This document shows positions 7,889-29,815 of a DNA stretch of 64,000 bases, piece after piece (the first letter of the stretch is position 1; the number at the start of each line of letters is the position of its first letter). The notes under the pieces are model-generated. The model saw only the letters and a program-made list of their open reading frames with translations. It did no database searches and was not told where the DNA came from. Source of the DNA: Janthinobacterium sp. UMAB-56 (GTDB lineage: Bacteria; Pseudomonadota; Gammaproteobacteria; Burkholderiales; Burkholderiaceae_D); the NCBI RefSeq assembly GCF_900095265.1, contig NZ_LT607656.1:18321-82320 (forward strand). Reading direction: 5' to 3'. Both the position numbers and the translations under genes were made by a program.

Positions 7889-9373
7889 TTAAATGCCGGC
7901 AGGGCTGCGCGTATGCCAGTCCGTCACTTGCTGGAACTGGTGGGCGATGTTCAGCAGTTTGGCTTCGCCAAAATAATTGCCGATGATTTGCAGGCCGACA
8001 GGGCGCTTGCCATTCTTGTCTCCCGCGCCGAAACCGCAAGGGATAGCCATGCCGGGCAGGCCGGCCAGGCTGGTTGACAGCGTGTAGATGTCGGCCAGGT
8101 AGTTCGCCACCGGGTCGTCCGTCTTGTCGCCCAGGTCCCAGGCGACAGTCGGCGCGACCGGTCCCATGATTACGTCGCAGACGGCGTTCGGGCCATTCAG
8201 CACGGCGTCGAAATCCTGTGCGATCAGGCGACGGATCTTTTGCGCCTTCAGGTAGTAGGCGTCGTAGTAGCCGTGGCACAGCACATAGGTGCCGACCATG
8301 ATGCGGCGCTGCACTTCCGGGCCGAAGCCCTGGGCGCGCGACTTCTTGTACATGTCCTGCAAGTCCTTGTACTCGGTGGCGCGGTGGCCGTAGCGCACGC
8401 CGTCGTAACGCGACAGGTTGGACGACGCTTCGGCCGGCGCGATCATGTAGTAGGCGGGAATCGACAGGGCGGTGTTCGGCAGCGAGATGTCGACCAGGGT
8501 GGCGCCCAGCTTTTCATATTGCGCCAGTGCGCCGCGCACGGCCGCTTCCACATCCTTGGCCAGGCCCTCGCCGAAATACTCGCGCGGCACGCCGATGCGC
8601 AAGCCTGTGAGGGGTTCATCCAGACTGCGTGAAAAATCTTCCGCCACGCCACCCTGTTCCGGCGACAGACTGGTCGAATCGCGTTCGTCGAAGCCGGCCA
8701 TGGCGGTCAGCAGCAGGGCGCAGTCTTCGGCCGAGCGGGCCATCGGGCCGCCCTGGTCCAGCGACGAGGCAAAGGCAATCATGCCGAAGCGCGAGACGCG
8801 GCCATACGTCGGCTTGATGCCGGTGATGCCGCAAAACGCAGCCGGCTGGCGGATCGAGCCGCCCGTGTCGGTGCCGGTGGCCGCCGGCGTCAGGCCGGCA
8901 GCAACGGCGGCGGCGGAGCCGCCGGACGAGCCGCCCGGCACGGCGTTGTTGTCCCACGGGTTCTGCACGGCGCCGAAGGCCGAGTTTTCGTTGCCGGAAC
9001 CCATGGCGAATTCATCGCAGTTGACCTTGCCCAGGGTGACCATGCCGGCCGCCTGGAATTTTTCCACCACGGTGGCGTCAAACGGGCTGGCGTAGTCGGC
9101 CAGCATTTTCGAACCGGCCGTCGTGCGCCAGCCTTTGGTGACGAACAAGTCCTTGTGCGCGATCGGCACGCCCGTCAATGGCGTTGCCGTGCCGGCGGCG
9201 ATGCGCGCATCGGCTTCGGCCGCTTGCGCCAGGGTCAGGGCACGGTCGACGTGCAGGAAGGCGTTCGAGTTGTCCGCTGCGATGCGGTCGAGGAAATGCG
9301 TCGCCAGCGCAACGGCGGAAATTTCCTTGTTCTGCAAAAGCGTGGACAGCTGTTTGATGGATTTTGTATGCAT
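7889..9373 (-). CDS. gatA: Asp-tRNA(Asn)/Glu-tRNA(Gln) amidotransferase subunit A
   Basis: 494 residues from the ATG at 9373. The amidase signature is complete: the catalytic Lys in IAHKDLFV, the Gly-Ser-rich [15 protein letters not shown], and [16 protein letters not shown] with the cis-Ser and nucleophile Ser. GatA hydrolyses glutamine and channels ammonia to GatB. The start at MHTKSIKQ is preferred to an upstream in-frame codon at 9418 because it matches the family N terminus. The gatC-gatA spacer is unusually long because a palindromic element (9428-9551) sits in it. Confidence 0.97.
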
Positions 9374-9427
9374 GGCGGTTCTATTTTTATATATTCGGCA
9401 AGGTTGGGATTCGTGCACTGCGCCGCT

Positions 9428-9551
9428 CTAGCGCCTGACAGAAGCGTAGCGAGCGGAAGTGAGTTGTGGCCGAGAAGCGGAGCTGTGCTTTAGCACAGTG
9501 AGCATCGGAGGCCGCAAATCGCGCCGCGCAGTAGCTTATGTCAGGTGCTAG
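9428..9551. repeat. Palindromic intergenic element, copy A
   Basis: A 124-bp structured repeat between gatC and gatA, starting one base after the gatC stop. The outer arms CTAGCGCCTGACAGAAGC (9428-9445) and GCTTATGTCAGGTGCTAG (9534-9551) pair over 16 of 18 positions, with one G-T wobble and one G-A mismatch. Inside, TTGTGGCC pairs with GGCCGCAA, and CTGTGC with GCACAG around a TTTA loop. The core (9446-9488 and 9497-9533) is almost identical to 29695-29737 and 29759-29796. I do not recognise a named family. Confidence 0.85.
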
Positions 9552-9854
9552 TTATTCGATCACTTTCGGCACCAGGTACAGGCCATCCTGGACTTTCGGC
9601 GCGACGGCCTGATAGGCGTCGCGGCGATTCGTTTCGGTGGCGATGTCCTCGCGCAGGCGCAGGGCGATATTGTCCATGTGGGCGGCCAGCGGGTGGCTCA
9701 GTGGGGCCACGCCATCGGTATTGACGGCTTGCATTTGTTCCGCCAGTGCAAAAATCTTGTTCAATTGGGCCAAAGAAGTGACGGCCTGAGCGTCGGCCAT
9801 TTCGAGTTGTGCCAGGTGGGCGATGCGTTTTACGTCAGATAGTGTCAGGGACAT
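9552..9854 (-). CDS. gatC: Asp-tRNA(Asn)/Glu-tRNA(Gln) amidotransferase subunit C
   Basis: 100 residues, the usual GatC size. The helix [13 protein letters not shown] is the family signature; the C-terminal belt segment ([20 protein letters not shown], then [11 protein letters not shown]) wraps GatA and GatB. The ATG at 9854 begins [10 protein letters not shown]; upstream in-frame codons back to 10001 have no family match. First gene of the gatCAB operon and divergent from mreB. Confidence 0.95.
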
Positions 9855-29671: not shown

Positions 29672-29677
29672 TTAGAA

Positions 29678-29815
29678 AGAACCTTAACAGAACCGTAGCG
29701 AGCGGCAGTGAGTTGCGGCCGAGAAGCGGAGCTGTGCGAATGCACGGGGCCGCCGAGGCAGTGAGCATCGGAGGCTGCAAATCGCGCCGCGCAGTAGGTT
29801 ATGTTAGGGTTCTAG
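29678..29815. repeat. Palindromic intergenic element, copy B
   Basis: A 138-bp relative of 9428-9551, lying between the DUF3567 gene and the amidotransferase. The outer arms AGAACCTTAACAGAACC (29678-29694) and its partner at 29797-29813 pair at 15 of 17 positions, with one wobble and the same G-A mismatch as copy A. TTGCGGCC pairs with GGCTGCAA. The central hairpin is GTGC-GAAT-GCAC followed by about 14 extra bases absent from copy A. The conserved core matches copy A closely while the arms have changed together. Confidence 0.85.

Follow-up and report, generated by a model that had tools for sequence, protein, structure and literature searches.

The spacer between the essential genes gatC and gatA in Janthinobacterium sp. 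UMAB-56 contains a palindrome whose arms differ from those of a second copy nearby and still pair with each other, which raises the question of whether it is kept for a folded shape, carried by a transposable element, or both. We addressed this for the window, meaning the whole 64,000-nucleotide stretch of DNA that was analyzed, whose own positions are used throughout. It is likely, in our assessment, that the palindrome is an IS5-kind MITE carrying a conserved core folded on one strand, with a putative role as a hairpin placed after stop codons. It is probably mobile and, at the same time, conserved in its folded shape.

As RNA, the gatC-gatA copy (Table 1) takes the shape of a single long imperfect hairpin with a free energy of -72.2 kcal/mol, compared with -43.7 +/- 3.3 kcal/mol for shuffled sequences (z -8.6; 0 of 200 shuffles this low), bearing out the original prediction of a palindrome in this spacer. 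Covariance model R1 scores it at 135.3 bits (E 7.5e-33), a value that includes the advantage of the copy belonging to the alignment of the model. The gatC stop codon occupies 9552-9554 and the element ends directly beside it at 9551; it had been placed one base from the stop, and there is in fact no gap. The arm sequences agree with those first described, with AAGC/GCTT here and AACC/GGTT in the second window copy, and likewise CTGACA/TGTCAG and TTAACA/TGTTA. A search of positions 9300-9700 against Rfam returned no family, the one match (11.9 bits) falling below its 55.2-bit threshold. The second copy belongs to a subfamily with a longer apical part (+13-15 nt, GCACGGGGCCGCCGAGGC in most), along with L015, L022, L029, L031 and L037 of the same genome. 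A weak model match at 1939-2047 (18 bits, E 0.029) is possibly a decayed copy or a chance match.

Table 1. Features of the gatC-gatA element and related loci, in window positions
Feature	Position	Strand	Remarks
Whole element	9428..9551	+	124 bases; given strand is the strand with the conserved fold
Left arm, read as terminal inverted repeat	9428..9445	+	18 nt; helix 1 of the consensus
Conserved core box GTAGCGAGC	9446..9454	+	250/256 copies (third base A or C, <=1 mismatch)
Conserved core box GAGAAGCG	9472..9479	+	233/256 copies (<=1 mismatch)
Apical stem-loop GCTGTGC-TTTA-GCACAGT	9482..9499	+	helix 5
Conserved core box GAGCATCG	9500..9507	+	239/256 copies (<=1 mismatch)
Conserved core box GCGCAGTA	9526..9533	+	251/256 copies (T or C, <=1 mismatch)
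Right arm, read as terminal inverted repeat	9534..9551	+	outer end adjoins the gatC stop
gatC	9552..9854	-	NCBIfam TIGR00135, 86.8 bits, cut-off 47.1; start picked by the author
gatA, downstream of the element	7889..9373	-	NCBIfam TIGR00132, 567.4 bits, cut-off 481.1; start picked by the author
Second window copy ("copy B")	29677..29814	+	138 nt, apical part longer; R1 115.2 bits, E 1.3e-27

Within its own genome, BLAST gave 40 matches at E <= 10, and the covariance model, built from 30 of the 34 own-genome copies fetched, gave 41 at E <= 1, with 38 of them at E <= 1.2e-9. Copies mostly span 122-147 bp, with no room for a transposase gene, and the element is short, non-coding, multi-copy and dispersed, which are the features by which MITEs are recognized. 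The further copies expected in related genomes are many: at E <= 0.001 the model matched 79 of 145 family genomes, representing 32 of 44 genera, and BLAST matched 23 of 25 genus genomes and none of 16 genomes from other families of the order. At E <= 1e-5 the model matched 53 of 300 genomes of the order and 16 of 369 of the class, and these distant counts are lower bounds, as the model was trained on the window's genus and the filters were tighter for searches covering more than 40 genomes. Scanning named genomes with a pattern gave at least 118 stretches, with Massilia, Herbaspirillum, Ralstonia, Zoogloea, Rubrivivax, Glaciimonas and Solimonas, a gammaproteobacterium, among the matches listed. 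No plasmid or phage copies were found by blastn with the window copy at E <= 0.001. In another family of the order, loci L154 and L155 (G323, G359) carry model matches in tandem, four in the first and two in the second, with several of the matches degenerate. The comparisons below use a set of 256 copies, from which two reverse-strand duplicates and eight repeats had been removed; L038, L039, L040 and L042 were left out of alignments A1-A3 and of the docking set, and L073, which resembles L070, was left out before alignment A4.

That the arms change and stay complementary, as first seen from two copies, holds across the family and extends to the inner helices. The consensus has 42 pairs, of which 32 vary on both sides in a chosen set of 44 copies representing 12 genera (the window's genus with 23, and 11 other genera with 21), and 95.6% of cells are paired, as against 76.1% in shuffles, none of 500 of which reached the observed level. 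Sliding the partner by one to three columns lowered pairing to 30-42%, in a control that favors the structure because it was drawn from the same alignment. Variation on both sides involves 15 of 15 pairs in the terminal-repeat helix, 12 of 14 in helix 3, and 4 of 7 in helix 5. The two arms match at 0.80 within a copy and at 0.44 between copies (n=255), and for Janthinobacterium-type copies (n=106) at 0.80 and 0.58, respectively. With one fixed pair excluded, G.T exceeds A.C by 67 to 6 in the inner helices and by 25 to 11 in the arms. Folded as RNA, the plus strand is more stable than its complement in 240 of 256 copies (mean -66.6 kcal/mol for the folded strand); one strand is therefore the folded one. 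The core of about 88 nt is common to many families, the arms differ, and all four core boxes are present together in 217 of 256 copies. Conserved internal loops, read by eye as GA opposite GCA, argue against simple arm-to-arm correction as the sole cause of the covariation. By eye, two unpaired core positions, columns 58 and 101 of alignment A1, share one base, either both C or both G, in 25 of 30 copies, an identity that does not amount to base pairing.

Evidence for mobility comes from a related genus, g102 (genomes G243, G360 and G390), whose element arms read GGGARCTTCTAAAAACC. Among 33 distinct copies chosen by these arms (L352-L381 plus L180-L191), 20 are bounded by an exact 4-bp target duplication, and the 15-base pattern of the arms, allowing one mismatch, has 115 matches in G243 against 2 for the reversed control. 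Over 250 copies the flanking 4-mers are equal in 20, where 1.5 would be expected, and this is one of the two top-scoring among 840 length and offset windows. In Janthinobacterium the duplication is visible in few copies, and none was readable from empty sites at gatC-gatA or at the peptidyl-prolyl isomerase-like gene described below. By eye, the g102 copies at these loci fall into size classes of approximately 122, 134 and 146 bp assembled from interchangeable left and right halves. The halves look as if they recombine at the apical stem, and such half-chimeras with target duplications (by eye) suggest that inner pairing may be dispensable for movement.

In genome G390, a 1307-bp insertion sequence (IS; locus L384) has the ends GGGAACTTCTCGAAACC and GGGAACTTCTAAAAACC, both of which are present as arms of local copies, with 17 of 17 bases identical to g102 arms at each end; this correspondence, which includes the left-arm position, lies outside the window's genus. 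By NCBIfam NF033581 (176.8 bits, cut-off 140) and Pfam PF01609, its transposase is of the IS5 family. The IS begins at a contig edge, leaving its own duplication unreadable, and the N-terminal part of the transposase is in another frame, through either mutation or frameshifting. A 1117-bp relative in G360 (L383) is shorter and has one diverged end, and five G243 copies of the L384-type transposase gene have no right end within 5 mismatches. G243 has 51 DDE_Tnp_1 matches in all. Inside the ends of L383 and L384 the sequence differs by eye from the element core; the ends alone are shared, and a derivation of the core from the IS ends was rejected on this ground. Similar termini occur on plasmids, where six of seven IS5 relatives examined from 204 records carry a terminal repeat similar to the arms, and that of Thauera has none. 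Their left ends read GGGCACCTCGAAAAACC in Pandoraea and P. fluorescens, GGGCACCTCTCAAAACC in one Comamonas and GGGAACCTCTCAAAACC in Diaphorobacter, and equal flanking 4-mers were found at two of the six, namely TTGC in the Comamonas element and TCAC in the Diaphorobacter element. In Massilia mucilaginosa an IS5 fragment ends in GGGCACCTCGAAAAACC, and the element arms in 3 of 5 loci are GGGGGCCTCGAAAAACC, an agreement of 15 of 17 bases.

Given the shared IS5 ends and the target duplications, the best reading takes the outer arms for terminal inverted repeats and the element for a MITE, so that outer arms which change and still match can partly reflect terminal repeats following their transposase. 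Counting against the MITE reading is that each Janthinobacterium copy has its own arms, which would not be expected from a fixed transposase site. No IS with the Janthinobacterium arms (GAACGCCTGACAAAACC-like ends) was found among the collected loci, in which the sole one of 112 arm-like matches lying outside an element is not IS-like. A candidate autonomous element, formed by inverted copies about 1.2 kb apart (L152, L153; G161, G004), was rejected, as it encloses a riboflavin-synthesis-like gene by eye. The original prediction had preferred selection on a folded RNA or DNA shape on the grounds that a classical transposon would keep identical ends. That argument fails in view of the 20 exact duplications among 33 copies and of an IS5-family IS with the same 17-mers in a related genus. 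The covarying shape itself was rightly recognized, and the error lay in taking it as a case against a transposon.

Individual sites record both presence and absence of the element across the genus. A full-length match at gatC-gatA occurs in 6 of 40 genus genomes, and of 30 genus loci 6 have the element, 23 are empty, and one retains the arms but has lost the middle. The deleted form (L082, genome G187) keeps both arms, and its two matching pieces overlap by 6 bases as a hairpin deletion scar. In a spacer read by eye as pyrH-frr, the element is present in 12 of 30 genus loci, with two helix variants at this one locus. After a gene that by eye resembles a peptidyl-prolyl isomerase (PPIase-like), 11 of 16 genomes have a copy (one degenerate) and 5 are empty; the copies there have different arms and all lie at the same spot right after the stop, and G045 has two in tandem. 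Among the six genomes with the gatC-gatA element, mean pairwise identity falls from 98.1% in each arm to 94.8% in the core, 91.6% in the remaining spacer and 80.5% at third positions of gatC. For the twelve pyrH-frr genomes the mean is 88.4% for the core, 91-93% for the arms, 87.7% for frr third positions and 78.8% for about 20 nt of spacer, such that the core is hardly above the third positions and the contrast is weaker than at gatC-gatA. Gene conversion between copies could contribute to this conservation. At pyrH-frr (L117-L135), 17 of the 18 loci without the element carry a different palindromic element (GGAGCACCGAGAAACCGTCCATGGCTGCG...), also right after the stop by eye, and the eighteenth carries a shorter palindrome. 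The ends of the GGAGCACCGAGAAACCGTCCATGGCTGCG... palindrome look IS5-like too, both palindromic elements are present at this site in G186 and G004, and its fuzzy motif has a match in 18 of the collected loci.

These observations bear on an explanation of the covariation as mutational, in which the terminal repeats are replaced along with the transposase, and the palindrome is maintained by template switching or gene conversion, without selection on the fold. Variation on both sides of all 15 terminal-repeat pairs would follow from it, the halves recombined in g102 (by eye) are the kind of exchange it calls for, and gene conversion is possible given the two helix variants at pyrH-frr. Arm-to-arm correction should, however, erase loop mismatches, yet the loop boxes are kept in 233-251 of 256 copies, and the inner-helix wobble is biased 67 to 6 toward one strand. 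We regard this explanation as unlikely.

The placement of copies relative to genes is one-sided. The 3' end of the element lies on a stop codon in 114 of 239 evaluable copies and the 5' end in 23 of 245, where docking means that a stop on the opposite strand, closing an open frame of 100 codons or more, falls within -4 to +1 nt of the 3' end of the element, with gene ends taken from the author's ORF scorer or from open frames of at least 100 codons rather than from annotation. When the 3' boundary was moved outward by 12-60 nt, 2-6 of 239 copies were docked; moved inward by 20-90 nt, 0-3 of 241-242 were docked, and by 12 nt, 29 of 241, which we read as stops inside the arm. Shifting the 5' boundary by 12-20 nt gave 8 to 22 of 245-246, and the unshifted 5' count is judged no higher. 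The Fisher value for the docking bias is 9e-22 and is descriptive, the copies being related. By arm type, assigned loosely with up to 6 mismatches, docking at the 3' and 5' ends is 56/102 and 8/104 for Janthinobacterium-type arms, 36/72 and 3/72 for unclassified arms, and weakly biased at 9/42 and 5/43 for Massilia-type arms; no more than 9 evaluable copies fall in any of the four remaining types. An excess of T lies two bases beyond both element ends, consistent with TNA-like targets, among which TAA and TGA are stops. The docking pattern should distinguish a transposase preference for TAA- or TGA-like targets from selection on gene ends. Among 72 copies docked at neither end, TCA outnumbers TGA by 6 to 3, which is too few to decide whether docking is one-sided through target choice or through selection. 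Where a copy is docked, the sense RNA is less stable than the opposite strand, and around 60 copies the genes on either side, taken relative to the folded strand, are oriented -- in 19, +- in 15, ++ in 12 and -+ in 11, with 3 incomplete.

Copies after stop codons and within operons would also suit a structured host RNA element, namely a regulator or processing site in 3'-UTRs or between cistrons that spread by descent with some copying, as would the covarying inner helices, the strand-biased wobble and the lesser change relative to third codon positions at gatC-gatA. It is difficult to reconcile with the target duplications and matching IS5 ends of the related genus, with the empty sites at gatC-gatA (23 of 30 genus loci) and after the PPIase-like gene (5 of 16), with a sense strand that varies over the 60 copies, or with the lack of an Rfam family, and we consider it distinctly improbable. 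A REP/BIME-like element that travels in single-stranded form through the action of a RAYT (TnpA-REP) HUH transposase would account for GTAG within the core, the stem mismatches and the strand-biased fold, and the genome has three Y1 transposase genes, but with no model match up to E 10 at any of these three loci, and related-genus ends common to a DDE-type IS plus target duplications, such a partner is not supported and deserves almost no credence.

We thus return to an IS5-kind MITE with a conserved core folded on one strand. The ends of 15-18 nt would serve as terminal inverted repeats on which a resident IS5-family DDE transposase acts in trans, cutting and joining them and leaving a short target duplication. 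Movement in trans is inferred, and the same mechanism may be extended to the window's genus, whose copies look old and mostly have no visible duplication. A duplicated TAA- or TGA-like target would re-create the stop, which could make insertion there harmless, and the core may then work, in either the transcript or its antisense, as a hairpin behind the stop that potentially buffers termination, decay or coupling with the gene that follows. The usual view of MITEs is that they are what is left when one IS with fixed ends decays. In this family it is the ends that differ from lineage to lineage and the middle that is conserved, and the middle is therefore probably the part that the element or the host retains. 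Copies lie within operons such as gatC-gatA. We offer more tentatively, as a possibility that we hold to be rather less than even, that an ancient folded core spread through betaproteobacteria and some gammaproteobacteria, repeatedly exchanging its terminal repeats for ones that suited successive IS5-family transposases, with resident copies adopted as orientation-specific stop-codon hairpins under host selection.

Known repeats resemble parts of this element. The ERIC sequences, or intergenic repeat units, of enterobacteria are intergenic, palindromic, MITE-like repeats of about 127 bp; by description they are alike in size (RU-1 is 127 bp) and differ in host group. We found no description of the present repeat family in open-licence PMC literature, an absence that carries little weight, and six core 12-13-mers searched as text matched seven papers, all unrelated by title. 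REP, BIME and REPIN sequences are described as extragenic palindromes, mostly downstream of genes and some with conserved stem mismatches (PMC3733652, PMC8266576). Their units are much shorter and are attributed to HUH enzymes (PMC3733652, PMC8266576), whereas no REP-type partner was seen for the present element. By description, the nearest published cases are MITEPsy1 and MITEAba12 (PMC3189936, PMC6382973). MITEAba12 of Acinetobacter is a short MITE for which a resident IS is proposed as parent, and one copy ends a gene with the stop inside the element; its predicted structure is weak, at -24 to -27 kcal/mol (PMC6382973), compared with the mean of -66.6 kcal/mol here. MITEPsy1 of Pseudomonas syringae is a 100-nt non-coding element with 18-nt terminal repeats and a 4-nt duplication at CTAG or YTAA, assigned by its ends to the IS5-family ISPsy2, with six copies in the genome, a restricted distribution and transposition reported in vivo (PMC3189936). 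The present element is likened to it, on that description, in being short and non-coding and in having terminal repeats of about 18 nt, a 4-nt duplication and IS5-family ends. It differs from MITEPsy1 as described in the excerpted text (PMC3189936) in its conserved folded core and its stop-codon docking, and a conserved, strand-specifically folded core together with one-ended docking on stop codons is unusual for an IS5-kind MITE.
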